Source of the DNA: Planctomycetia bacterium
GTDB taxonomy: Bacteria > Planctomycetota > Planctomycetia > Pirellulales > UBA1268
Length of the DNA: 46,437 nucleotides
Assembly (NCBI GenBank): GCA_021414115.1
Contig: JAIOPD010000025.1
Location: 1-46,437 of the forward strand
Reading direction: 5' to 3'
Below, one piece after another: positions 581 to 46,437 of this stretch (position 1 is the stretch's first letter; every line of letters begins with the position of its first letter). The position numbers and the translations under genes are program-made. Below the pieces are notes generated by a model that did not search any database, had not been told where the DNA came from, and saw only the letters and a list, made by a program, of their open reading frames with translations.

Positions 581-3268
581 ATGGCGTTCGCCGACCGCAC
601 TGTATCCCAACGCTTCGCGCCCCCGGCCCGCGTGGTGGCCCGCCCGGTCGTCGAACCTGCGGCGTCGGTCACCGCGGCGACGCGGAACCGCGTTCGCGAT
701 CTGACGGCGCTGGTGCTCCTCGCTGGATGCATCTTTTTGGTGGCGGCCCTGGCGACGTTCGACGCCGGCGATCCGCCGACGTCGCGGGTTTTCCCGCCGC
801 ACGCCCGGGCGATCAACGCCTGCGGACTGCTCGGCGCCGCCGTCGCCGGCACGCTCATCGAGTGCTTCGGCATCGGGGCGTGGTGCGTGGTGGCATTCGT
901 GGCGGCTCTCGATGCAGCGCTGCTCCGCAGGCGTGCGCTGCCCGACCTCCCGCTCCGGACCGCCGGCGCGATCCTGGCGACCGTCGGCGTCTGCACGCTG
1001 CTCACACTCTTCCTGCCCGACTGGGTCGGTCGTCCGCTCTGGGGCCCCGGCGGCCGCGTCGGCGGCATGGGTGGCCTGTTGGCCGGCTCGAATCTCGCGC
1101 AAACGGGGGCCGCGATCATCGTCACGGCGCTCACCTTTGGCGGTCTCTTTCTCGCCTGCGATACGGCGATCCTCTGGCTGGCGCGAAGCTCTGGAACCCT
1201 GGCGGTTGCCTGCACGACGGCATGCAGCATGATGGCGACGCGGCTGGCCCGGAGAAGGACGGTGAGCGACGCATTCGATGCCGAGCAGCCTGATCTGGCG
1301 GATCGGTTCCCCGGGATGCGGTCGCGGCTTGCAGGCCGCGGCGATGCCGAAGCCGACCTCGATTCCGACGATGCCGAAGGGGAGCCGACCATCCGCGTGA
1401 AGCGACGTGAGCTGCCCGTGGCCGCGGCCGCGGATCTGGAGGACGAGACGATCGTCGAGGATGCCGATCTCGGTGGCGACGCGGGAGAGGACGCCGTACC
1501 GGCAGCTCCGCAGCCACTGGTGCCGATCCGGTCGCTCTCGAACCGCCGCAAGCCACAGCCCACGCTCGAACTCTCCCCCGACCCGGCGGCCGACTACGAG
1601 CTGCCGAGCCTCGACCTCCTCCTCCCCACCGAATACCTCGAGCTCGATCAGCAGGAGCAGGAAGTCCGCGACCGGGCGAAGGTGCTGGAGAAGACGTTTG
1701 CCGAGTTCGGATTCAAGGTGAAGGTGGTCGAGGTGGAGACCGGCCCGGTGATCTCGCAATACGAGATCGAACTGGAGGCTGGGCTGCGGCTCGCGAAGAT
1801 CACGAATCTCGCCGACGACCTGGCGATCGCGCTGCGCGTGCCGAGCGTCCGCATCGTGGCCCCGATCCCCGGCAAGAACTCGGTCGGCATCGAGGTGCCC
1901 AACACGACCCGGCAGATGGTCCGCCTCCGCGAGGTGATCGAGGAGACACAGGCCAAGAGCCGCACCATGAAGATCCCGATCTACCTCGGGAAGGACGTGG
2001 CGGGCAATCCCATGGTCGTGGACATGGCGAGCATGCCCCACCTCCTGATCGCCGGCCGCACCGGCACGGGCAAGTCGGTCTGCTTGAACTCGATCATCGT
2101 CTCGATGCTGATGACGCGGCGGCCCGACGAGGTGCGGATGCTGATGATCGACCCCAAGATGGTCGAGCTCACGCCCTACAAGTCGCTCCCGCATCTGATG
2201 CACCCGGTCGTCACCGACATGAAGAAGGCCGAGGCGATCCTCGCCTGGGCGGTCGAGAAGATGGAACAACGCTACGCGCTGCTCGCGAAGGTCGGCGTGC
2301 GCCATCTCACCCAGTACAACGCGCTGGGCCGCGAGACGATCCTGGAACGGATGAGGCCCGAGTCGGAGGAGGAAGCCGCCGCGATCCCCACCACGATGCC
2401 GTTCATCGTGATGATTGCCGACGAGATCGCCGACATGATGATGACCGCGGGCAAGGAGATCGAGGCCCACATCATTCGGCTTGCCCAGAAGAGCCGGGCG
2501 GTCGGCATCCACCTCATTCTCGCCACGCAGAAGCCGACGGTGGACGTGATCACCGGTCTCATCAAGAGCAACCTGCCGGCGCGGATCGCCTTCCAGGTGG
2601 CGAGCCGCACCGACAGCCGCGTGGTGCTCGACGAGATGGGGGCGGAGCGGCTCCTCGGCAACGGCGACATGCTCTTCCTCTCGCCGGGCACGAGCCAGAT
2701 CCTCCGCGGGCAGGGCACGTATCTCAGCGACGAGGAGATCGGCCGCGTGATGGGGGCGATTGGCACGAGCGAGCCGCAGTACGCCGCGGAGCTGGTCAAT
2801 CTCCAGCCGGCACCCTCGGGCGACGCCGGCAAGGCGGGCGTGAGCCCGAAGGACAAGGACGATCTCTACGAGGCGGCGGTGGAGGTGGTGATTCGGGAGG
2901 GCCGCGGCAGCGTGTCGCTCCTGCAACGCGCCCTGGGCGTGGGCTATGGCCGCGGCGCCAGGCTCATCGACTTCATGGCCGAAGACGGCGTCGTCGGCCA
3001 ATACGCCGGTTCCCAGGCCCGCGAGGTCTTGATCACGATGGACCAGTGGGCCGAGCGAACGGGCTCCGCCCCCCTGCCCCCCGACCCGACCCCGCGGAAG
3101 CTGAAGATCCAGCCCCACGCCTCCGCGCCGGCCGTGATCGACGCGGACGAGACGGGCGACGCGGACGAGGACTTCGAAGACGACGATGCCGGCTTCGAAG
3201 ACGGGGACACCGACGCCTTCGATGACGACGTCGAGCAGGACGAGGCGTTTCCCGACGACGATCGTTAG
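581..3268 (+). CDS. ftsK: DNA translocase FtsK/SpoIIIE
   Basis: Membrane-anchored, ATP-driven DNA pump that moves chromosome ends across the division septum. The 895-residue product has about four hydrophobic segments in residues 35-210 (the FtsK 4TM domain), a short acidic linker, then the alpha/beta motor with Walker A GRTGTGKS (about 492-499) and Walker B ending in DE (614-615). The winged-helix gamma domain that reads KOPS sites is at about 760-825 (DDLYEAAVEVV through GVVGQY). The chosen ATG has AAGGA eight bases upstream; the frame extends to 506 but those codons do not look coding. Odd feature: about 50 residues rich in Asp and Glu follow the gamma domain, which normally sits near the end. 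Family identity is certain; the role of the acidic tail is unknown. Confidence 0.95.
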   Translation: MAFADRTVSQRFAPPARVVARPVVEPAASVTAATRNRVRDLTALVLLAGCIFLVAALATFDAGDPPTSRVFPPHARAINACGLLGAAVAGTLIECFGIGAWCVVAFVAALDAALLRRRALPDLPLRTAGAILATVGVCTLLTLFLPDWVGRPLWGPGGRVGGMGGLLAGSNLAQTGAAIIVTALTFGGLFLACDTAILWLARSSGTLAVACTTACSMMATRLARRRTVSDAFDAEQPDLADRFPGMRSRLAGRGDAEADLDSDDAEGEPTIRVKRRELPVAAAADLEDETIVEDADLGGDAGEDAVPAAPQPLVPIRSLSNRRKPQPTLELSPDPAADYELPSLDLLLPTEYLELDQQEQEVRDRAKVLEKTFAEFGFKVKVVEVETGPVISQYEIELEAGLRLAKITNLADDLAIALRVPSVRIVAPIPGKNSVGIEVPNTTRQMVRLREVIEETQAKSRTMKIPIYLGKDVAGNPMVVDMASMPHLLIAGRTGTGKSVCLNSIIVSMLMTRRPDEVRMLMIDPKMVELTPYKSLPHLMHPVVTDMKKAEAILAWAVEKMEQRYALLAKVGVRHLTQYNALGRETILERMRPESEEEAAAIPTTMPFIVMIADEIADMMMTAGKEIEAHIIRLAQKSRAVGIHLILATQKPTVDVITGLIKSNLPARIAFQVASRTDSRVVLDEMGAERLLGNGDMLFLSPGTSQILRGQGTYLSDEEIGRVMGAIGTSEPQYAAELVNLQPAPSGDAGKAGVSPKDKDDLYEAAVEVVIREGRGSVSLLQRALGVGYGRGARLIDFMAEDGVVGQYAGSQAREVLITMDQWAERTGSAPLPPDPTPRKLKIQPHASAPAVIDADETGDADEDFEDDDAGFEDGDTDAFDDDVEQDEAFPDDDR

Positions 3269-3913
3269 ATCGCGTTCGACTCTGGAGTTCGCCTGACGGG
3301 GGCCTGAGTGGTGGGTCGGGGCTGCCCGTACCCCGCGAGCCGGACGTTCGCTTCGTCCATCCTGGACTTCGCTCACTCGATGCTGCCTGCGCTTCGGCAT
3401 CCAGCCTGCGCTGGCCAGCAACGCCGGCTCTCGGGGTACGGGCAGCCCCTCGCGGGTTCTCGAAGGCCGGGGAAGCCCGGAGCGCGAGCGACGGGGAGAC
3501 GCTTTCCACCCCAACCCGCTCCGCGTCACGTCCACGAAGCGCCACCCGCTGTCCCCTCGCTGCTCAGCGGTGGAGCGCATTCGACTTTGGTGTTTTGCCG
3601 GCTCCGGTGGCCAAAAGTCGCCGCTTCGCGGTCCTTCGGATTCTCGCGGCGGCAGGATCGCCGAAGCTCGTCGAGCGTGTGCCGACCCTCCCGTCGCCTA
3701 CCCGTCCTGGCTTGCCAACACGACGCTCCACTTCGACTGGATGCGCTCTAGGGTTCTCCTGTGTGAAGGGGATCGATTCGCTCCGCAACTCCTCTGATGC
3801 GGCCGCGTTGCGGGTGGACGCGCCTGCAGGGCATGATCTTACGATCAGGCTAAAAATGCCCTGTTACGCGGGTCCGCGGAATGAAGAGTTCGCCCAACAT
3901 CCCAGAGATCATC
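3269..3913. repeat. Repeat-rich intergenic region containing a full copy of the dispersed structured element
   Basis: 645 bp without a convincing gene. The first part (about 3270-3500) is a copy of an element found again at 46250-46437. Its core is a long inverted repeat: arm 3318-3343 pairs with 3424-3449 (18 bp perfect, one mismatch at 3336/3431, then 7 bp). Inside the loop are smaller hairpins, GTCCA-TCC-TGGAC near 3355-3367 and GATGC/GCATC near 3378-3401. A 25-base box related to CCCGTCGCTCGCGCTCC, in reverse orientation, follows at about 3472-3496. The remainder (3500-3800) holds scrambled pieces of the same flanks, such as the GCATTCGACTTTGG-like string near 3577. A nested hairpin lies at 3827-3863. 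Confidence 0.8.
3318..3449 (+). ncRNA. Core of the structured repeat, copy A (possible structured RNA or MITE-like element)
   Basis: The terminal arms are complementary over 26 positions with one mismatch. Compared with the copy at 46304-46435, the arm pair A3330-T3437 is replaced by G-C, and the inner hairpin pair T-A near 3356/3366 is replaced by C-G. These are paired substitutions that keep the helix. One further change (C3322 to T) would leave a G-U wobble in RNA. This covariation is seen directly. Whether it reflects a transcribed RNA, a protein-binding cruciform or a mobile miniature element is not known; the strand given is arbitrary. Confidence 0.5.
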
Positions 3914-4297: not shown

Positions 4298-4794
4298 CCA
4301 TCATCCAGCCACGCTGGGCGAACCATACGATGCAATGGACCCGCGGGCGTCGTCGTGATTGACGGTAAGCCAGTGGGCCGCGGGCCATTGATCGGAACTG
4401 TGCGAGTGACGTGGAGCGATAAACGTAGTGCCCGAAGCAGTAGCGGCACTCTGTGTCTGTGAAGCGATCGTGGAGCTCTCGGCAGTTCCGCTTTCAACTC
4501 CCGCAGGTCCTCAACCTCAACCGACTCCCCGCCGCTGGCTCGGGTCGCGAACCGGATACCCGTCGCTCGCGCTCCGGGCTTCCCGGGCGTCGGACATAAT
4601 CGAGATTCCGCGAGGGGCACGAGGAGCCCCGACCCACCACTCGGGCTTGCGTCAGGCGTTCCGCTAAAGTCGGATGCGATCCCGCCTCGGGGCCCAGGCA
4701 CCAGACGCCCCACTCCCCACGGCTCGCGGATCAGCACGCTCACCTGCCTTGCCCTTGCGAGCCCTCGCGGGCGATTCCGGGTATTCTTCCGGTC
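4298..4794. repeat. Intergenic region with a possible gene scrap and a reversed, core-less repeat copy
   Basis: Bases 4321-4461 can be read on the + strand as a fragment containing VVVIDGKPVGRGPLIGTV before a stop, reminiscent of the DGKPV motif of planctomycete carboxypeptidase-regulatory-like lipoproteins; there is no start and the match is short. From about 4530 to 4680 the reverse complement carries both flanks of the dispersed element (a GCATCCGACTTT-like start, GAGTGGTGGGTCGGGGCT, and the GGAAGCCCGGAGCGCGAGCG box), but most of the hairpin core is missing. The region also serves as the upstream region of the cyclase gene; no clear promoter was recognised. Confidence 0.55.
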
Positions 4795-6090
4795 ATGACC
4801 CAGGCAGGCGGACGCACGATCGTGATCGCGGAGGATAGCCGCGTGCAGGCGCTGCTCCTCAAGCGGGCCCTCGAGGCCCGTGGTCACACCGTGCACCTCG
4901 GGGGGAATGGCGTGGAGGCCCTGGCGCTCGTGCGGGAGCATCGCCCGGCCATGCTCATCTCCGACGTCGAGATGCCGGAGATGGATGGCCATGCCCTCTG
5001 CCGGGCCGTCAAAAGTGATCCCGACCTGCGCCGCACGCCCGTCCTGATGCTGACCGCACTGGCCGCCACGTCCGACATCCTGGCGGGACTTCGCGAAGGC
5101 GCCGACGCCTACGTCACCAAGCCCTATGAGCCGGACCACATCCTCGAACGCATCGAGCATTTGCTCGCGCAGGATCCGTCCGGCGACAGGCCCGGCGAGC
5201 CGCTGGAGCTCGACTACGCCGGCGAGCGGATGCGACTCGATGTCACCCGCCGTCAGCTCCTCAACCTGCTGCTGTCCACCTACGAAAATATCCTCCAGCA
5301 GAACTCGAAACTGGCGGAGATGCACCGCGCCCTCGGCGAGACCAGCGGTCAGCTCGAGGCCAGCCTGCGGAAAACGCGGGAGCTGCTCTACAAGGTCTTC
5401 CCGCGTCGGATTGCCGACGAGCTCGCCGTCGGGGGGCAGACCGAGCCCATGCAGTTCGACAGCGTCACCGTGCTGTTCACCGACTTCGTGGGCTTCACGA
5501 AGACTGCCGAGACGATGTCGCCGCGGCAACTAATCGAGGATCTCGAGCAGTATTTCCGCCGGTTCGACCAACTGCTTGCCGAGTGTCACATGGAGAAACT
5601 CAAGACGATCGGCGACGCCTACATGGCCGCTGGCGGGGTGCCGGAGCCGAATCGGTCGCACCCGCTCGATGCGGCATTGTTTGCCCTTGGCCTTCGCGAG
5701 TTCGTCGCCGCGACCGGCAGCGAGCGGGCGGCGGGCGGGCTCCCGTTCTTTCCGATCCGCATCGGTCTGCACACCGGGCCGCTCGTGGCCGGTGTGATCG
5801 GCGAACAGCGGTTTCTCTACGATCTCTGGGGCGACACGGTCAACACCGCCAGCCGGATGGAGAGTCGCGGCGAACCGGGCCGGATCAACATCTCGGAGGC
5901 CACCCACCTGCTCGTAGCCCCGTGGTTTGAATGCACGTCACGTGGCCGGATCGAGGTCAAGGGCAAGGGCGAGGTGGAGATGTTTTTTCTCGACCGGCTC
6001 AAGCCCGAGTTCAGTGACGATGCCGCCGGCCTCGTGGGCAACGAGAGGTTTCGTGCGGACCACGACCGCTTGCGCTCCCGGGAAGCCTGA
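4795..6090 (+). CDS. Response regulator receiver fused to class III adenylate cyclase
   Basis: Cytoplasmic signalling enzyme of 431 residues expected to make cAMP from ATP under control of a phosphorelay. Residues 7-125 form a CheY-like receiver with acidic pocket E13/D14, phospho-acceptor D57 in ISDVEMPEMDG, T87 and K109. A helical linker (about 140-200) probably dimerises. The cyclase domain (about 218-400) has the first metal Asp in FTDFVGFT, the KLKTIGDAYM segment with the ATP-selecting Lys and second metal Asp, and LYDLWGDTVNTASRM with the adenine-selecting Asp, transition-state Asn and Arg. All catalytic positions look intact, and Lys plus Asp indicates adenylate rather than guanylate cyclase. 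No histidine kinase is adjacent. No Shine-Dalgarno sequence is evident. Confidence 0.9.
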   Translation: MTQAGGRTIVIAEDSRVQALLLKRALEARGHTVHLGGNGVEALALVREHRPAMLISDVEMPEMDGHALCRAVKSDPDLRRTPVLMLTALAATSDILAGLREGADAYVTKPYEPDHILERIEHLLAQDPSGDRPGEPLELDYAGERMRLDVTRRQLLNLLLSTYENILQQNSKLAEMHRALGETSGQLEASLRKTRELLYKVFPRRIADELAVGGQTEPMQFDSVTVLFTDFVGFTKTAETMSPRQLIEDLEQYFRRFDQLLAECHMEKLKTIGDAYMAAGGVPEPNRSHPLDAALFALGLREFVAATGSERAAGGLPFFPIRIGLHTGPLVAGVIGEQRFLYDLWGDTVNTASRMESRGEPGRINISEATHLLVAPWFECTSRGRIEVKGKGEVEMFFLDRLKPEFSDDAAGLVGNERFRADHDRLRSREA

Positions 6091-6122
6091 ACCGCGAGCG
6101 ACGAGTGGGCGCCAGTGAGCGG

Positions 6123-14697: not shown

Positions 14698-14986
14698 GGC
14701 CAGGCGTCACGAGAGAGCACCTCAGTCAAAGGCAGCTGATGCGCACAATGTCTGGATCGTGAGGATCCGCGGGTGGCACGTGCCGAAGCCGAAAACACTC
14801 GGCGTGGCGCTCAGCGAGCCGTGGCATCGGCTGCTCAGGAAGCCCGGAGCGCGAGCGACGGGTAGACGGGTGGCATGGCGTGAGGGTGCCGCGGAACGAG
14901 GCGGGGTGGAGGACGTATTCCCCGCGCTCCCGCTTGGGGCTTCGTCACCGGAGGCAGCGCCGAACCCCACCCGCGAAATCGTGGCC

Positions 14987-16825: not shown

Positions 16826-16880
16826 GGAGTCTCGGCGTGGAGAATCTATTCCCCGCGCTTGCGCTTGGGGCTTCCTGACG
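16826..16880. repeat. Short dispersed box (ATTCCCCGCGCTTGCGCTTGG type)
   Basis: GGCGTGGAGAATCTATTCC and the GCGCTTGCGCTTGGGGCTTC that follows closely resemble 14906-14945 (about 45 bp shared) and, more distantly, the boxes at 4557-4585, 3472-3496 and about 6066-6085. All copies are intergenic or at gene ends. Confidence 0.6.
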
Positions 16881-22444: not shown

Positions 22445-22653
22445 AAGAGCCGCCTGGCAGTCCTGCCAAATCGGCACCTTTCTTGGGTGAGTTTCGCGGC
22501 ATGGTGCCGCAGACCTGCGAAAAATGCCCGTAAATAAGAAAACAATGCCCGCGCAGCCGTTCGTGGCACGCGGGTTGCTTTCCTACCGTGCATCCCGAGG
22601 ATGGGCTGCCAAATCGGTCACCCACAACGTCAGATAGTCGAGAGGAGTCTTCC
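22445..22653 (+). promoter_or_regulatory. Sigma-54 promoter region of groEL1 with candidate activator sites
   Basis: TGGCACG (22564-22570), four bases, then TTGCT (22575-22579) is a perfect match to the sigma-54 -24/-12 consensus, with GG and GC separated by the obligatory 10 bases. The predicted start is near 22590, about 65 bases before groEL1. Upstream are two perfect inverted repeats in the range used by enhancer-binding proteins: TGGCAG-TC-CTGCCA (22455-22468) and GCGGCA-TGG-TGCCGC (22496-22510). The 12-mer CTGCCAAATCGG occurs at 22463-22474 and again at 22606-22617 in the leader. No CIRCE element was seen. The activator is not in the window. Confidence 0.75.
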
Positions 22654-24357
22654 GTGGCCAAACAGATGGTGTTCGACGACGAGGCTCGCCAGCCGTTGCT
22701 CGCCGGCGTTTCCAAACTTGCCCGTGCCGTGAAGAGCACGCTCGGCCCTCGCGGCCGCAACGCGGTCCTCGACAAGGGCTGGGGTTCGCCCAAAGTGACC
22801 AAGGACGGCGTCACCGTCGCCGAGGACATCGATCTCGAAGACCCGTACGAAAATCTCGGTGCGCAGCTCGTGAAGGAGGCCGCCAGCAAGACCAACGACG
22901 TCGCTGGCGATGGCACCACCACGGCCACCGTCCTCGCCGAGGCGATTTTTCGTGAGGGCATCAAGATGATCGCCGCGGGCGCCGACCCGATGGCTCTCTC
23001 TCGCGGGATTCACAAGGCGGTCGAGGCGGTCTCGAAGGCGGTGCTGGCGATGGCCACGCCGATCAACGAGAAGAACAAGAAAGAGCTGATGCAGATCGCC
23101 ACGATCGCCGGCAACAACGACCCGACGATCGGCAACGTGCTTTCCGAGGCCTTCCTCAAGGTTGGCAAGGACGGCGTGATCACGGTCGAGGAGGGCAAGC
23201 AGGCCGAGACCACGGTCGACGTCGTCGAGGGCATGCAGTTCGACCGCGGCTTCCTCTCGCCCCACTTCGTGACCGATGCGGAAAGCCAGGTCTGCGAGCT
23301 GGAAAACCCGTTCATTCTTCTCTACGAGGAGAAGATTTCGAGCGCCAAGAATCTCGTGCCGCTCCTCGAGGCGATCAGCAAGGCGGGCAAGCCGCTTGTG
23401 ATCATCGCCGAAGACGTCGAGGGCGAGGCTCTGGCGACGCTCGTGGTGAACAAGCTCCGCGGCATCGTTCAGTCGGTCGCCGTGAAGGCTCCCGGGTATG
23501 GCGATCGCCGCAAGGCCATGCTCGGCGACATCGCCGTGCTCACCGGCGGCCAGGCCATCTTCAAGGACCTCGGCATCGCGCTCGACGGCGTGAAGCTCAC
23601 CGACCTCGGTCGTGCCAAGAAGGTGATCATCGAGGCGGAAAACACCACCATCGTCAGCGGTGGCGGCACGAAGGCCGCGATCGACGGCCGCGTGGCCCAG
23701 ATCCGCGACGAGATCTCGAAGACGACCAGCGACTACGACCGCGAAAAGCTCCAGGAGCGGCTCGCCAAGCTCGCCGGTGGCGTGGCCCAGATCAACGTGG
23801 GGGCCGCGACCGAGACGGAGATGAAGGAGCGCAAGGCCCTCATCGACGACGCCAAGAGCGCCGTGCAGGCGGCCCTCTCCGAAGGCGTCGTTCCCGGCGG
23901 CGGCGTGGCTCTGCTTCGCAGCGAGAAGGCGCTCGAAAAGCTCGACCTCGAAGGGGACGAGAAAATGGGCGTGTCGATCGTCAGGAATGCCCTGCGGTAT
24001 CCGCTCGAGGCGATCGCCGAGAATGCGGGCACCGACGGGTCGGTCGTGGTCAATCGCGTCAGGCATATGAAGGGTAAAAATGACGGCTACGACGCCGACA
24101 AGGGAGAGTATTGCGACCTCGTCAGCGCCGGCGTGATCGACCCGGCCAAGGTCGTGCGAACAGCCCTGCAAAACGCCGCCAGCGTGGCGGCCCTGCTCCT
24201 CACCACCGACTCACTCATCACCGAGATCCCGAAGGATGAGGAGCCCGCCGGTGGCGACGGCCACGATCACGGGATGGGTGGCATGGGCGGAATGGGCGGC
24301 GGCATGCCGGGCATGGGTGGCATGGGTGGCATGGGTGGTATGGGCGGCATGATGTGA
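22654..24357 (+). CDS. groEL: Chaperonin GroEL, copy 1 (with GGM tail)
   Basis: ATP-driven folding chamber subunit, 567 residues. The ATPase signatures are present: [48 protein letters not shown], and [20 protein letters not shown] carrying the catalytic Asp. The C-terminus is a long Gly-Met tail ([10 protein letters not shown] type), as in housekeeping GroEL, preceded by an unusual [16 protein letters not shown] at 22654 was chosen because GAGAGGAG lies seven bases upstream; the frame continues to 22588, where transcription is predicted to start. It precedes groES (71-bp gap), reversing the usual groES-groEL order. The sigma-54 promoter upstream sets this copy apart. Confidence 0.95.
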
Positions 24358-24786: not shown

Positions 24787-26406
24787 GTGCCCAAGCAACT
24801 GATGTTCGACGACAACGCCCGCGCCAAACTGCTCAAGGGCGTGGAGAAGTTGGCAGGCGCCGTGGCCGTGACCATGGGTCCGGCTGGCCGCAACGTGATC
24901 ATCGACAAGTCGTACGGCGGTCCGACGGTGACCAAGGACGGCGTCACCGTGAGCAAGGAAGTGGATCTCGAAGACGCGTTCGAGAACATGGGAGCGAAGC
25001 TCGTCAACGAGGTGGCCTCGAAGACGTCCGACCTTGCCGGCGACGGCACCACGACGGCGACCGTGCTTGCGCGGGCGATCTTCCGTGAGGGCACGCGGAA
25101 CGTGGCCGCCGGTTCGAATCCGACGGCCGTCCGCCGGGGCATCGAGAAGGGCGTCGCGGCTGCCGTGCAGCGGCTGATGGAGATGGCTCGCAAGGTGGAG
25201 CGGCCGGAGGAGATCGCCCAGGTGGGCGCCATCAGCGCCAACAATGACCGCGGGATTGGCGATCTGCTGTCGGAGGCCCTGCAGAAGGTCGGCAAGGACG
25301 GCGTGATCACCGTCGAAGAAGGCAAGACGATGGAGACGACCGTGCGGTTCGTCGACGGCATGCAGTTCGACAAGGGCTTCGTGTCGCCCTACTTCATCAA
25401 CAAGCCGGCGGAGATGGAGTGTCAGCTCGACGACGCACTCATCCTGATTCACGAGAAGAAGATCTCGAACCTTCGCGATCTGCTGCCGCTGCTCGAGAAG
25501 GTTGCCCAGTCGGGCAAGCCGCTTCTGATCATCGCCGAAGACGTGGACGGCGACGCGCTGACGGCGCTCGTGGTCAACAAGCTCCGGGGCGTGCTCAACA
25601 TCTGCGCCTCGAAGGCTCCGGGATTCGGTGACCGCCGCAAGGCGATGCTCGGCGACATCGCCACGCTCACGGGCGGCACGCTGATCAGCGAAGACCTCGG
25701 GCTGAAGCTCGAGAGCCTCGACCTCTCCCACCTCGGGAAGGCCAAGAGCGTCACCATCGACAAGAACGAGACCACGATCGTGCAGGGCGCCGGCAAGCAG
25801 TCGGACGTGCAGGCCCGTGTGCACCAGATCCGCACGCAGATCGAGAACACCGAGAGCGAGTATGACCGCGAGAAACTGCAGGAGCGGCTGGCGAAGCTGA
25901 CCGGCGGCGTCGCGATCGTGTCCGTCGGTGCCGGCACTGAGGCGGAGATGAAGCAGAAGAAGGCCCGCGTCGAGGATGCCCTCCACGCGACCCGTGCCGC
26001 CGTCGAAGAGGGGATCGTCCCCGGTGGCGGCGTGGCTCTGCTCCGCTGCCGTGAGGCGGTCGAGAAGGCTCGCTCGCAGGCCAAGGGCGACGAGAAGATC
26101 GGCGTCGACATCATCCTCCATGCCCTCGAGGCCCCGATCCGGCAGATCGCCGAAAACGGCGGCATCGATGGTGCGGTGGTGGCCGACGAAGTGGCCCAGA
26201 AGGACATCAACATCGGCTACGACGCCAACAAGGGCGAGTATGTCGACATGCTCAAGGCCGGAATCATCGACCCGGTGAAGGTGGTTCGCGTGGCGCTGAC
26301 GAACGCGGCGAGCATCTCGGGCCTCCTGCTGACGACCGAGGCGCTCGTCACCAACCTCGAAAAGGACGAAGCGAAGAAGCGGAAGATCGAGGGCAGCGTG
26401 CGGTAG
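24787..26406 (+). CDS. groEL: Chaperonin GroEL, copy 2 (no GGM tail)
   Basis: 539-residue second chaperonin. It keeps the full ATPase set ([69 protein letters not shown]), and residues around the catalytic Asp are closer to the canonical E. coli sequence than in copy 1. It lacks the Gly-Met tail and ends in charged [18 protein letters not shown] start with AGGAG about seven bases upstream. The divergence of both apical domains and tails suggests different client sets; that is inference. DnaJ follows 70 bp downstream. Confidence 0.95.
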
Positions 26407-31207: not shown

Positions 31208-34200
31208 ATGACGCACACTGTTGCTCGCTCACGCGTCGGCCTCCGCGGCCGGATTGCTGCCGTGCTTCTCATCCAGGCCCTGCTGGCCGTCGCCCCGCTG
31301 CCCGCGCCGGCGGCCGACAACTTCTGGACGGGTGGCGCCGGCAATGGCAACTTCAGCGACAACGCCAACTGGCAATCGCCGCCATCGTGGGGTTTTGGAA
31401 ACAGCCTGGTGTTCAAGGCGAACACAACCGCCCCCACCCTCACGAACGACTACGGCGGTTGGCGCGATAACAACGACATCTTTTGGGACACGACGTTCCC
31501 CGTAGCACGCACGCTCCTGGCCACGGGTGACTTCGGTATCAATTTCAAATTACGAGTGGAGAACAAAAGCTCCTCCACCCAGACCGTCACCATGCCACTG
31601 TCTGGCGGGAAGGACGGCGCCGGCGGGATCGAACTCAATCCCGTCAACGGCAGCCTGATCCTGAGCGGACCCATCTACAACGACAACAGCGTCGACTACA
31701 CCGTCTACGGAAGCGACACTGCGACCGTCACGAATCTCACGCTCAACACCGCCCTCGGTTCGAATGCCCCCACCCAGGCCAATGTCGATTTCACCGTGGC
31801 GGGCGGCCGCAACTCGGCCGTGCAGGTGAACGCCAGCCAGGTTTGGTCCGGCACAACGACCGTCAACTCGGGTGCCTTCACGACGGCCAACGGCGTCACG
31901 CTCGCCTCGACGGCGATCGTCGTTGGAGGGGGCACGGTCGCCACGACCTCGGCCAACACGCTCGCCGACACGGCCTCGCTCACGGTCAACACCGGCCGCC
32001 TCTCGATCGGCGGCAGCGACACGGTGGCCTCGCTCGCCGGCTCCGGCGGCACGATCGATATCGCCTCCGGCGCCACGCTTACGGCGGGCAACGCCAGCTC
32101 GACGTCCTACGCCGGCTCGATCACCGGCGCTGGCAATCTCGCGAAGGTCGGCAGTGGCACCTTCACGCTCTCCGCTGCGAGCAGCATGACCGGCACGACG
32201 ACGGTGAGTACCGGACAGTTTTCACTCGGCGGATCGAATCTGCTCGCCGACTCGTCGGCGGTGACGGTGGCGGGCGGTGTGCTCGCCCTCGGCGGAAACT
32301 CCGACACTGTCGGGTCCTTCGCGATCTCGGGCGGTTCGCTGACGGGATCGGGCACGGTGACGGCCGCGAACTACACGCTCGGCGGCGGCACGGTGACGGC
32401 CAATCTCGGTTCGGGCACGATGATCGTGACGGGCAATGCCTCCTTGAACGGCACGTCGAATGGCACGACCCTCAATCTCACATCCGGCACCCTCACCCTC
32501 GGCTCGGCCGGCCGGCTCGCCGCGACGACCGCCGTGGCGGTGACCGGATCGGCCGGCGGGGCCCTCACGCTCGGCGGCAGCGAGACGATCGGCTCGCTGG
32601 CCGGGGCCGCCAACGTGGCGCTCGGCTCGAGCGCCCTCACGGTCGGCGGCAACAACCAGAGCACGACCTACTCGGGCGGCCTCTCCGGCAGCGGCCTGTT
32701 CACGAAGGTCGGCAGCGGCACGCTCACGCTCTCCGGCATCAACTCCAACTCAGGCGGCACGACGGTTTCCGCCGGTCGGCTCGTGGGCACGACGTCGAGC
32801 CTGCAGGGCGCGATCACGAACAACGCGGCCGTCACGTTCGACCAGGCGACCAGCGGCACCTACTCCGGTGCGATGACTGGCTCGGGCAGCCTCACGAAGA
32901 TCGGGGACGGCGTCGTCACGCTCTCCGGCAACAACTCGACCTCCGGCGGCGTGGCGATCAACGCCGGCTCGCTCGCCCTCGGCTCGGTGAATGCCCTTGG
33001 CACGACCGGCACGATCTCGTTCGGCGGCGGCGCACTGCAATACTCGGCGAGCAACACGACCGACTACTCGGGGCGGTTCTCGACCGAGGCGAACCAGCAG
33101 TACCGAATCGACACCAACGGTCGGAGCGTGACGCTCGGCTCGAACCTGACAAGCTTCGGCGGTTCGCTCGCGAAGCTTGGAGGCGGCGCGTTGACGCTGT
33201 CCGGGAGCAACTCGTTCAGTGGCGGCATCGCGATCGACGCGGGCACCCTCGCGCTTACGTCGGCCGGCGCCCTCGGTTCGACCGGCACGATCTCCTTCGG
33301 CGGCGGCACGCTGCAGTACGTCTCGAACAACGCCACCGACTACTCGGATCGCTTCTCGACGGCTGCCGGCCAGCAGTATCGGATTGACACGGGTGAACAC
33401 TCTGTCTTTGTGGCTTCGAACCTCACGAGTGCCGGAGGCTCGCTGACGAAGTTGGGCTCCGGCTTCCTGAACCTCACCGGCACCAACACCTACTCGGGCG
33501 GAACGGTCGTCTCCGGCGGTACGTTGATCGGCACGCCCGATTCGCTGCAGGGGGCGATCACCAATAACGCTCAGGTCACCTTCGTCAACGGCGGCATCTA
33601 CGCCGGCGTGATCAGCGGCAGCGGTGCGGTGGAAGTCCAAAGCACGCTCCGTTTCACGGCCGCGAACACCTACACGGGCGAGACGATCGTGAGTAGTGGC
33701 GGCGGCCTTCGGCTCGACGGTTCGATCGCGGGCGATCTGTTGGTCGACGCCGTCAGCTCGCTGAGCGGCACGGGCACGGTCGGCGGCAACGCCGTGATCG
33801 GGGGAGTCCACTCCCCGGGCAATTCGCCCGGCATCCAGACGTTCAACGGCAACCTCACGTATCGGGGCGATGAGAACGTCCCGCAAGTCAACTGGGAGCT
33901 GATCGCCAACACAACGGGCTCGGCGGGTGTGAATTACGACCAGGTCGTCATGCCAACCGGCAACCTCGACTTTGCCAACGCGACGACGCTCGCCCTGTCG
34001 TTCGACGCCCTGGGCAGTTCCGTCCTCTGGTCGGATGCGTTTTGGAACGTGAACCGTTCGTGGACGATCTACGACCTCACGACGGGCACAACGAACAACA
34101 TCGGCAACCTTTCGGTCGGTGGCTCACTCCTTGACTCCTTGGGCAACGCACTCTCCCCGACCGGCCGTGGCTTCTTCACGACCTCCCTCGTCGGGCAAGA

Positions 34201-34333
34201 TGTCGTGCTCAACTTCACCGCCGTGCCCGAGCCCTCGACATGGGCCATGGCCCTCGCCGGCTTCGCGGGAGGCGGCTGGATGATGCGGCGGCGGAAGCCG
34301 GCTGGCGGACCGCGTCCGTCAGCTCTTTCGTGA
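31208..34333 (+). CDS. Autotransporter-associated beta-strand repeat protein with PEP-CTERM anchor
   Basis: Secreted, surface-anchored beta-helix protein of 1041 residues. Signal peptide at about 1-36 (LIQALLAVAPLPAPAAD), then an N-terminal domain with WTGGAGNGNFSDNANW, followed by many PATR-type repeats of the form G.LTKxGxGTLTLSG.NSxSGGTTVSAG. Two adjacent units of exactly 92 residues begin at nt 32951 and 33227 and share GTISFGGG.LQY, NxTDYS.RFST and QQYRIDT. The C-terminus is a PEP-CTERM signal: VPEPSTWAMAL, a Gly-rich hydrophobic helix and RRRKPAGG. The family sorts proteins through an exosortase, not present here. First gene of a three-gene cluster; its stop touches the next gene. Confidence 0.9.
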   Translation: MTHTVARSRVGLRGRIAAVLLIQALLAVAPLPAPAADNFWTGGAGNGNFSDNANWQSPPSWGFGNSLVFKANTTAPTLTNDYGGWRDNNDIFWDTTFPVARTLLATGDFGINFKLRVENKSSSTQTVTMPLSGGKDGAGGIELNPVNGSLILSGPIYNDNSVDYTVYGSDTATVTNLTLNTALGSNAPTQANVDFTVAGGRNSAVQVNASQVWSGTTTVNSGAFTTANGVTLASTAIVVGGGTVATTSANTLADTASLTVNTGRLSIGGSDTVASLAGSGGTIDIASGATLTAGNASSTSYAGSITGAGNLAKVGSGTFTLSAASSMTGTTTVSTGQFSLGGSNLLADSSAVTVAGGVLALGGNSDTVGSFAISGGSLTGSGTVTAANYTLGGGTVTANLGSGTMIVTGNASLNGTSNGTTLNLTSGTLTLGSAGRLAATTAVAVTGSAGGALTLGGSETIGSLAGAANVALGSSALTVGGNNQSTTYSGGLSGSGLFTKVGSGTLTLSGINSNSGGTTVSAGRLVGTTSSLQGAITNNAAVTFDQATSGTYSGAMTGSGSLTKIGDGVVTLSGNNSTSGGVAINAGSLALGSVNALGTTGTISFGGGALQYSASNTTDYSGRFSTEANQQYRIDTNGRSVTLGSNLTSFGGSLAKLGGGALTLSGSNSFSGGIAIDAGTLALTSAGALGSTGTISFGGGTLQYVSNNATDYSDRFSTAAGQQYRIDTGEHSVFVASNLTSAGGSLTKLGSGFLNLTGTNTYSGGTVVSGGTLIGTPDSLQGAITNNAQVTFVNGGIYAGVISGSGAVEVQSTLRFTAANTYTGETIVSSGGGLRLDGSIAGDLLVDAVSSLSGTGTVGGNAVIGGVHSPGNSPGIQTFNGNLTYRGDENVPQVNWELIANTTGSAGVNYDQVVMPTGNLDFANATTLALSFDALGSSVLWSDAFWNVNRSWTIYDLTTGTTNNIGNLSVGGSLLDSLGNALSPTGRGFFTTSLVGQDVVLNFTAVPEPSTWAMALAGFAGGGWMMRRRKPAGGPRPSALS

Positions 34334-43757: not shown

Positions 43758-46241
43758 ATGCCTCACCTTCGCAGCATCTTGGTCCGGGCGGTCGTCTCCT
43801 GGGGATTCGCGGCCGTCATCGCCGCCTCGGCCTCCGCCGCGGATCTGGCAGGCCGCCTCGGGCTGGCCGCCAATGAGCAAGAAAACCCGCTGGCAGCGGT
43901 CACCGCGGCCCTTGGCGATCCGGTGACGGTGACTGCCGTGATCGAGCCAGGCGACGCCGGCAAACCCGACGCCTTGGCTGTCACGGCCTTGCTCGAGGAT
44001 GGCTGGCACCTCTACGCGATCTCGCAAAAGCCGGGCGGTCCGATTGCCACGAAAATCAAGTTGGCGGCTGATTCTCCGCGGCAGGCATCTGGCGAGTTCA
44101 CCCCCGACACCGCACCTCACAAGCGCACGGTTGACGACGTGCCCGCCTGGAAGGGGCTCGTGATCGAGGAGCACTCGGGCAAGGTCACGTGGCGGGCGGC
44201 TCTTGTCCCGGGAACAGGAGAGGTGCGGGGCGCGGTGAGCCTGCAGCTCTGCCAAGACACCACCTGCCTGCCGCCGCAATCGATCGCGTTCACTGCTCAG
44301 GCCGCAGGGCCGCGGGCAGCGGTGGCCACGCCTGCCGGCGGCGATCTCCGATTCGTTGAGCACGCGCCAGAGCGGGTCCACGCCCGAGTGCGGGCCGCCT
44401 TCGGTCGGCCGGCCGTCGCCGGGTCGTCCGCATGGCCATTGGTGGTGGAGCTCGTGCCGGCGGAGGGCTGGCATCTCTACACACCGGCGGGTTCGGCGGA
44501 GAGCAAGGTTGGGCAGGGCAAGCCCACGATCGTCTCGGCCGCAGCGGGCGACGGTGCCGAGGTCGCGAAGGTTGCAATCTCCAAGGTCACGCCCACGACG
44601 CACGCGGAACTCGTCGAGTCTGGCGCGGTGGACGGTCCGGTGGTGCTCGAGTTGCTCATCGACGCACCGCCTGCGGCCGGCGACGCGGCTCGGACGGTCG
44701 ATGCGATCGTCGGGTTTCAGACATGCAGCGAGCAGACCTGCGACCCGCCCACGGCCGTGAGGCTGAAGATCACGGCCCCGACCGACGCGCCGGCGTCGGG
44801 AGCCATTCGCTTCGAAGACGCCCGCTACGCCGAAGCTGCCAAGAAGCCGCTTGCGTTGGCTGCCCACGACGCCCCGCCTGCGGCGACGAGCACTGCTGTG
44901 ATCCCGGCGATGTCGGCAGCGCCCGCCACGGCCGTGATCCCCGACACGGCGGCGATCCCGGTCTCCGGCGTGCCACTCGCCCTGCCGCTCGCACTCCTCA
45001 TGGGGCTTGCCGGCGGCCTCCTCCTCAACCTGATGCCGTGCGTGCTTCCGGTGCTCGGGCTCAAGCTGATGTCGTTCGCGCAGCAATCGGGCCGCGACCG
45101 CCGCGAAGTTTTCCAGATGAACCTCTGGTATTGCGCGGGCGTGTTTGCGGTGTTCTTCGCTTTGGCGACGGCGAGCGTGGCGGCGAACCTGGGTCTCGGC
45201 AGGGCCAACCTCGCCTGGGGCGAGCAGTTCACCTCGGCTGGCTTCAACATCGCCATGATCGGCATCGTGTTCGCCTTCGCGCTGTCGTTTCTCGGCATCT
45301 GGGAACTCCCGATCCCCGGCTTCATCGGCGAAAAGGCTGGCCACGTGCAATCGCAGGAGGGACCGGCGGGCTCGTTCCTCAAGGGCGTGTTGAGCACGGT
45401 GCTGGCCACGCCCTGCAGCGGTCCCTTCCTGGGCCCGGTGTTCGGCTTCACGCTCTCGCAGCCGACGGCCGTGACCTACGCCGTCTTCGGAGCGATCGCG
45501 ACGGGGATGTGTCTGCCGTACGTCCTCGTCGGCCTCGTGCCCGGACTCGTGAAGTTTCTGCCGAAGCCCGGCGCCTGGATGGCAACGTTCAAGGAGGTGC
45601 TGGGGTTCGTGATGCTCGGCACGGTCGTCTATCTGTTCACGTTTCTGCACCACGAGTGGTTCGTGCCCACGCTCGCGCTCCTGATCGGCATCTGGGCAGC
45701 CTGCTGGTGGGTTGGTCGCGGGCAGGAAAAGACCGGCGTGGTCGGCTTCGGCCGCTGGGTGCAGGCGGCGACGGCAGCGGCGGTCATCGGCTGGAGCGCC
45801 TTCACCCTGCTCGGCCCGGGAGAGTCCGTGATCGAGTGGCAGCAGCCGTTCTCGCGCGACCGGATCGCCGAACTCCGCAAGACCGGCGCCACGGTGATGG
45901 TCGACTTCTCCGCCGATTGGTGTCCGACCTGCAAGTTCAACCTTGCGTATGCGATCGAGACCGACAAGGTGCGGGCGAAGATTGAAAAAAACCGCGTGGT
46001 CCCGGTGCTGGCCGACTGGACCGATGGATCTCCCGAGATCAAGGTCGCGCTCGAGGGCCTCCAGAGTCGGTCGATCCCGGTGTTGGCGATCTATCCGGCG
46101 GCGCAGCCGGGTGAGACGCCTCCCGAGCCGATCGTGCTCCGCGACCTGATCACCGAGTCGCAGGTGCTCGAGGCGCTCGAGAAGGCCGGGCCGTCGCGGG
46201 CCGAAGCCACGGCCTTTCGCTCCGCGTCGACCAGCCGGTAG
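43758..46241 (+). CDS. DsbD-like thiol:disulfide interchange protein
   Basis: 827-residue membrane protein that carries electrons from cytoplasmic thioredoxin across the membrane. Signal peptide at 1-27. The periplasmic part holds two copies of the DsbD N-terminal (DsbC-like) domain: about 45-185 with DGWHLYAISQKPGGP and CQDTTCLPPQ, and about 205-345 with EGWHLYTPAGSAES and CSEQTCDPPT. The transmembrane CcdA-type domain (about 405-700) has its Cys pair in NLMPCVLPVLG (C428) and ATPCSGPFLGPV (C553). The C-terminal thioredoxin domain has DWCPTCK (C722, C725). Classical DsbD has about 565 residues and one N-domain. Distant from other redox genes here. Confidence 0.9.
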   Translation: MPHLRSILVRAVVSWGFAAVIAASASAADLAGRLGLAANEQENPLAAVTAALGDPVTVTAVIEPGDAGKPDALAVTALLEDGWHLYAISQKPGGPIATKIKLAADSPRQASGEFTPDTAPHKRTVDDVPAWKGLVIEEHSGKVTWRAALVPGTGEVRGAVSLQLCQDTTCLPPQSIAFTAQAAGPRAAVATPAGGDLRFVEHAPERVHARVRAAFGRPAVAGSSAWPLVVELVPAEGWHLYTPAGSAESKVGQGKPTIVSAAAGDGAEVAKVAISKVTPTTHAELVESGAVDGPVVLELLIDAPPAAGDAARTVDAIVGFQTCSEQTCDPPTAVRLKITAPTDAPASGAIRFEDARYAEAAKKPLALAAHDAPPAATSTAVIPAMSAAPATAVIPDTAAIPVSGVPLALPLALLMGLAGGLLLNLMPCVLPVLGLKLMSFAQQSGRDRREVFQMNLWYCAGVFAVFFALATASVAANLGLGRANLAWGEQFTSAGFNIAMIGIVFAFALSFLGIWELPIPGFIGEKAGHVQSQEGPAGSFLKGVLSTVLATPCSGPFLGPVFGFTLSQPTAVTYAVFGAIATGMCLPYVLVGLVPGLVKFLPKPGAWMATFKEVLGFVMLGTVVYLFTFLHHEWFVPTLALLIGIWAACWWVGRGQEKTGVVGFGRWVQAATAAAVIGWSAFTLLGPGESVIEWQQPFSRDRIAELRKTGATVMVDFSADWCPTCKFNLAYAIETDKVRAKIEKNRVVPVLADWTDGSPEIKVALEGLQSRSIPVLAIYPAAQPGETPPEPIVLRDLITESQVLEALEKAGPSRAEATAFRSASTSR

Positions 46242-46437
46242 GCCGATGCCTCGGGCGCATCCGATTTTGGTGTGTCGCCTGAAGGGGTTCCGAGTGGTGG
46301 GGCGGGGTTGCCCGTGCCCCGTGAGCCGGACGTTCACTGCGCCCATCCCGGGCTTCGTTCACTCGATGCTGCCTGCGCTTCGGCATCCTGCCTGCGCTGG
46401 CCAGCAACGCCGGCTCTCGGGGCACGGGCAGCCCCTC
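46242..46437 (+). repeat. Structured repeat element, copy C (cut by the window end)
   Basis: A second full core of the dispersed element. Arm 46304-46329 pairs with 46410-46435, with a T/T mismatch at 46322/46417 and one wobble. The flank GCATCCGATTTTGGTGTG and GAGTGGTGGGGCGGGG matches that at 3270-3320. The loop shows GCCC-ATCCC-GGGC and GATGC/GCATC hairpins. The element lies directly behind the dsbD-like gene, as copy A lies directly behind ftsK, in the same relative orientation. Confidence 0.8.

Follow-up and report, generated by a model that had tools for sequence, protein, structure and literature searches.

A stem-loop of about 135-140 nt, present in at least 144 copies in the genome of a Planctomycetia bacterium, is best explained as a REP/MITE-like family of non-autonomous DNA hairpins that are dispersed by an enzyme acting in trans and whose strand-specific fold is under selection. 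To this reading we assign a probability of about 0.6. The two copies that drew attention to the element lie in the window, i.e. the whole stretch of 46,437 nt of contig JAIOPD010000025.1 that was analysed. The family that hosts the repeat belongs to the Planctomycetota and is known mainly from environmental metagenome assemblies; we head the repeat under lake Planctomycetota. It is a well-sampled, strongly covarying, strand-specific hairpin repeat in a group for which few such repeats have been described; in the literature searched for planctomycete structured RNAs and repeats only one REP survey was directly relevant (PMC3733652).

Fold of the element and its probable structured strand

Each unit consists of a long stem (helices 1-2) around two arms, H2 and H3, which carry an identical terminal motif. 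On the minus strand this motif reads GC-GNA-(4-5 bp)-GGA-(4-5 bp)-GNA-GC, and an extra GA/GA step is present in H2. The window contains the following parts:

3312-3451, minus strand (the one that probably folds): core element copy 1, a three-armed stem-loop; covariance-model match E 1.7e-25; fold z -7.0 on the plus and -8.2 on the minus strand
46298-46437, minus strand: core element copy 2, reaching the contig end; covariance-model match E 5.8e-24; fold z -8.0 (plus)
3318-3343, no strand assigned: 5' arm of the long stem, GGGGCTGCCCGTACCCCGCGAGCCGG, from fold and covariation (helices 1-2)
3424-3449, no strand assigned: 3' arm of the long stem, CCGGCTCTCGGGGTACGGGCAGCCCC, from fold and covariation
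3346-3376, minus strand: inner hairpin H2 with GA/GA and GNA/GNA internal loops and a GGA loop; alignment columns 40-72
3378-3423, minus strand: inner hairpin H3, whose distal part (3391-3411) has the GNA/GNA plus GGA motif as in H2; alignment columns 74-125

The long-stem arms of copy 1 are complementary at 25 of 26 positions, and those of the second copy were found at 46304-46329/46410-46435, where an earlier note on this DNA had placed them. Over a 163-nt stretch the two copies share 90% identity. Reading the differences directly, we recovered the changes on which the note had built its case: in the arms an A-T pair is replaced by G-C, in a hairpin T-A is replaced by C-G, and a further arm change yields T.G. 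Since none of 200 shuffles folded as well as the window copies, the fold is not due to chance.

The proposal that selection acts on the fold is supported by an alignment of 96 diverse copies, from which a covariance model was also built. Two-sided changes occur in 29 of the 47 pairs; the alignment contains 307 two-sided cells as compared with 94 in shuffles, and 94.1% of its cells are paired. The covariation score amounts to 0.187, against 0.067 for shuffled alignments and 0.017-0.048 for structures slid out of register, and all five covariation measures exceed all 500 shuffles as well as every slid version. Because the copies share ancestry, significance based on shuffles is overstated; the slides preserve relatedness, and the margin over them is large. 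Within the inner hairpins, six mismatched positions (T.C or C.T on the plus strand, G.A on the minus strand) are kept in 239-265 of 266 distinct copies, and the pairs adjoining them covary. No named family had been recognised for the element, and Rfam likewise gave no gathering match anywhere in the window and, for the element at five diverse loci, no match with E<=1.

The structured strand is probably the minus strand, opposite to the one read earlier, because it is there that G.A mismatches, GGA loops and most wobbles come to lie. The pyrimidine-pyrimidine mismatches of the plus strand turn into G.A pairs on the minus strand, arranged as GA/GA and GNA/GNA; G.A pairs in such loops are sheared. 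A TCC loop on the plus strand, thus GGA on the minus strand, is kept in nearly every H3 loop and in most loops of H2. When the non-Watson-Crick cells of the 266 distinct copies are counted, A.C on the plus strand, which is a wobble on the minus strand, outnumbers G.T on the plus strand by 291 to 72, a bias seen in 31 pair columns versus 8 and in 148 copies versus 27. The 96-copy set gives 115 (minus) versus 29 (plus), and the copies of the own genome taken alone are balanced (22 versus 20). A strand-biased mutation process could contribute to the wobble bias as well. With RNA parameters the minus strand folds to lower energy in 110 of 120 copies, with DNA parameters in 114 of 120. As to the nature of the folded single strand, ssDNA seems the better candidate and RNA the less likely one; the strand data fit either.

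The same features would suit a multi-copy structured RNA transcribed from the minus strand and bound by a protein, such as a sponge for CsrA, a reading that we regard as unlikely. Such an RNA would account for the G.A mismatches and wobbles, and GGA is exposed in both minus-strand hairpin loops, mostly as AGGAU with complementary flanks (CAGGAUG), which would resemble the CsrA-binding consensus. csrA genes are found in 72 of 72 family genomes, but these include genomes in which no copies were found (e.g. G022 and G023), and the absence of an orientation bias relative to transcription, together with the high turnover at orthologous sites, argues against an RNA. Most family genomes have three to five csrA-like genes.

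Copy number, carriers and apparent movement between sites

A nucleotide search with the 163-nt stretch yielded about 40 copies in the own genome, and the covariance model raised this number to at least 144 (144 of 150 scored candidates), a lower bound since nearly all scored candidates matched. With the same model, 65 copies were counted in the relative G018 and 51 in G049. The element occurs in all 22 genomes of its own genus; within the family it is present in 63 of 72 genomes, which represent 11 of the 12 genera. Under stricter filters and with few scored candidates per genome, conditions that weak relatives may escape, it was found in 0 of 160 genomes from other families of the order and in 0 of the 293 other genomes of a 294-genome phylum sample. 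The named genomes with exact-motif matches are MAGs that go under Planctomycetaceae, Planctomycetia or Planctomycetota; some have doubtful names (e.g. Kuenenia).

Many stem-loops of the own genome sit inside a longer, MITE-like composite bounded by TIRs. Both window copies are embedded in this longer repeat, so that the coordinates of the earlier note describe its cargo only. The window holds these further parts:

3266-3289, plus strand: left TIR of the composite, beginning at the ftsK TAG stop codon (3266-3268); consensus TAGAGCGCATCCGACTTTGGTG, from which the window copy is more diverged
3571-3592, plus strand: internal second left TIR
3729-3750, minus strand: right TIR, which closes the composite; minus-strand sequence TAGAGCGCATCCAGTCGAAGTG
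46251-46272, plus strand: left TIR of copy 2 with 3 mismatches, just beyond the DsbD-like gene, which stops at 46241
3471-3501, plus strand: module GGAAGCCCGGAGCGCGAGCGACGGG downstream of the stem-loop, also at 6081-6111 and 14838-14868
4537-4683, minus strand: relative of the composite in collapsed form; TIR and adjoining modules kept, long stem-loop shrunk to GGGGC..GCCCC

The left-TIR consensus matches 60 sites in the own genome and none with a reversed-pattern control. A related inverted repeat, with 9 sites, closes some copies, including the window copy. A facing TIR pair at 1-4 kb spacing, as an autonomous element with matching ends would have, was absent among the listed TIR sites, at a kind of repeat where draft contigs often break. 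TAG precedes the left TIR in 16 of the 25 own copies that have one. It often serves as the stop codon for the gene before it, and at the orthologous empty site L245 the TAG stop is already there. The genes upstream of the two window copies are indeed those named before, FtsK (FtsK_SpoIIIE, E 9e-62) and a DsbD-like protein (DsbD_TM, E 1e-18), and the remark that both copies follow a gene would find its explanation in a composite that often starts at a TAG stop. In genome G015 the copies (e.g. L131, L134) have another flanking inverted repeat, tcacacttgaacct..ctcaagtgtga, which suggests another carrier in that species and a stem-loop that may travel on more than one kind of carrier.

The earlier suggestion of a MITE-like repeat comes close to the best explanation. 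The TIRs belong to the composite (3266-3289/3729-3750), the stem-loop's only inverted repeat being its own arms, and because no target-site duplication has been established for the stem-loop, its exact ends are uncertain.

Two further GC-rich modules are dispersed, GGAAGCCCGGAGCGCGAGCGACGGG at the three sites listed above and at 4537-4588 (minus), and CCCCGCGCTnGCGCTTGGGGCTTC at 14902-14948 and 16833-16879. Both recur intergenically in the own genome and in the closest relative, G017, often near the stem-loop, giving mosaic intergenic regions. The collapsed relative at 4537-4683 has no significant fold (z +1.15). Collapsed stem-loops were also seen at loci L053 and L059 (compare L012 and L007), in which a deletion has occurred between the arms at their GGGGC repeats, the outcome that hairpin-promoted slippage would give. 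At other loci of the own genome the 5' arm GGGGCTGCCCGTGCCCCGAGAGCCGGACGTTCGCT stands in tandem two to four times ahead of the full element (L031 1822-2110, L035 2005-2248, L041-L043 and L402).

Judging from sequence comparison, the repeat appears to move between sites. The ftsK 3' region gave no stem-loop match in the 16 relatives that could be read, and G017 has only a short element with two TIRs there. At further loci G017 either lacks the stem-loop altogether or has a TIR composite that does not contain it; one locus is common to the own genome and a relative (L033/L074). A clean empty counterpart was found for an own copy without TIR composite (L407 versus L237, ...ctgcctc|aggcg...); at this single clean empty site for the stem-loop itself the overlap at the junction is at most 2 bp and ambiguous. 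Several other apparent empty sites were dropped, as they turned out to be other copies or repeat-to-repeat matches. In genus g22 a unit that hardly varies and runs from about CGGTTC to TCACGGAT lies within unrelated flanks, as expected after recent spread.

A mechanism can be proposed for the spread of the hairpin. The unit would fold as a single strand, most likely the minus strand, into the long stem with its two arms, and an enzyme supplied in trans might recognise this folded strand (ssDNA, less likely RNA) and copy or insert the unit elsewhere. If only copies that keep the fold can spawn new copies, covariation would be maintained. Selection against insertion into genes and promoters would leave copies at gene 3' ends, and carriage of many copies by the TIR-bounded composite, which often begins at TAG, would place several starts at stop codons. 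Covariation among the copies of a repeat need not imply a functional RNA. A more far-reaching version, which we put forward tentatively and hold to be doubtful, is that of a family-wide mobile element recognised by a non-RAYT enzyme through its single-strand 3D fold, i.e. tandem G.A pairs and two identical GGA hairpins; this would be a new fold-recognised transposition or copying system that boards other MITEs as cargo.

Genomic placement and the search for a mobiliser

Gene neighbourhoods were scored for the 202 copies that had a gene within 500 nt on either side, using a simple codon-usage gene caller, and compared with intergenic gaps of >=140 nt in the window plus 1.2 Mb of G017. The copies lie between convergent genes in 97 cases, between two minus-strand genes in 50, between two plus-strand genes in 40 and between divergent genes in 15; the corresponding background gaps number 89, 138, 80 and 121. 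Convergent pairs are thus enriched (48% versus 21%, p 8e-12) and divergent pairs depleted (p 4e-10), figures to be read with the crude gene caller and the non-independence of copies in mind. The two unidirectional settings are even (40 versus 50, p 0.34), and overlap of a copy with a called ORF never exceeds 60 nt. A 3' processing element, as considered earlier, or an ncRNA transcribed along with the gene before it finds no support: the two settings are even, the structured strand is probably the opposite one, and the relatives that could be read have no stem-loop downstream of their ftsK orthologues.

Enrichment between convergent genes, scarcity between divergent ones and the very stable stem could also point to a bidirectional terminator or mRNA 3'-end stabiliser kept by selection. 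We consider this improbable, as termination does not need elaborate strand-specific mismatches and orthologous 3' ends do without the stem-loop. An intrinsic terminator was rejected for want of a U-tract: of 119 copies, 4 show TTTT close to the end of the stem on the plus strand and none does so on the minus strand.

Candidate mobilisers were sought next to the copies and genome-wide. The only gene families that recurred beside copies were a few sets of orthologous loci, three or four to a set. Y1 transposases are encoded in 26 of 72 family genomes and are somewhat commoner where copy numbers are high (20 of 39 versus 6 of 33 genomes, p 0.006, a weak association counted by hand and uncorrected for phylogeny). 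This association, the strand-specific hairpins with mismatches and the REP-like placement, convergent and unidirectional with few divergent sites (PMC3733652), would fit a REP or REPIN proper moved by its own RAYT (Y1 HUH) transposase. Yet the own genome with its 144 or more copies has no Y1 transposase, neither the element nor its hairpin motif stands alongside the Y1 loci examined, the GTAG tag is missing and the element is 3-5 times as long as a REP, which makes this reading hardly probable. Palindromes undergo correction between arms, and a between-arm deletion was observed (L053), but a palindrome drifting by replication template switching without selection on the fold is very improbable, since plain correction gives perfect arms and would erase the six mismatches conserved amid covarying pairs.

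Other genes of the window include two neighbouring chaperonin (Cpn60/GroEL) genes at 22588-24357 and 24787-26406, about 70-80% alike in stretches, and one for a large protein (31208-34333) with five PATR autotransporter-type repeats and a PEP-CTERM signal.

Relation to known repeat families

REPs are short palindromes of 20-40 bp that fall into GTAG and CGTC superfamilies, the CGTC families being without a dedicated transposase (PMC3733652). Like REPs, BIMEs and REPINs, the element is a dispersed intergenic palindrome with tens to hundreds of copies, located for the most part at gene 3' ends and where the neighbouring genes are convergent or unidirectional (PMC3733652); its placement (97/50/40/15 versus 89/138/80/121) is extragenic, enriched at 3' ends and depleted between divergent genes. 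It differs in its length of about 140 nt, its two arms, a fold kept family-wide and the lack of a RAYT beside the copies. Its flanks mostly read GG(T/C/G)TC..TC(A/G)CGG, without GTAG, and its ACGTC adjoins H2 inside the fold and is no end tag. By the tests made the element is not a REP/RAYT member, although it shares the placement of REPs and possibly their way of working. With the empty sites found in close relatives, the question of how palindromes that lack a dedicated transposase, such as CGTC REPs, spread and keep their fold can be tested directly.

Resemblance to other systems is likewise partial. The bacterial MITEs ERIC, Correia/NEMIS, YPAL and bcr1 are palindromic, intergenic, 100-200 bp long, present in many copies and moved in trans. 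Compared by description only, the element shares their size, palindromy and intergenic multi-copy nature, and many of its copies lie in a TIR composite, whereas its conserved non-Watson-Crick pairs and strong covariation set it apart. Integron attC sites are recognised as a folded single strand by structure and not by sequence, with arms free to covary; in contrast to these, no RYYYAAC/GTTRRRY core boxes were noticed in the element and no cassette genes were seen beside its copies. RNAs of the CsrB/RsmZ type have repeated hairpins with GGA loops within one sRNA gene; the minus strand of the element offers the same GGA hairpin loops, but as many dispersed units of two hairpins each.
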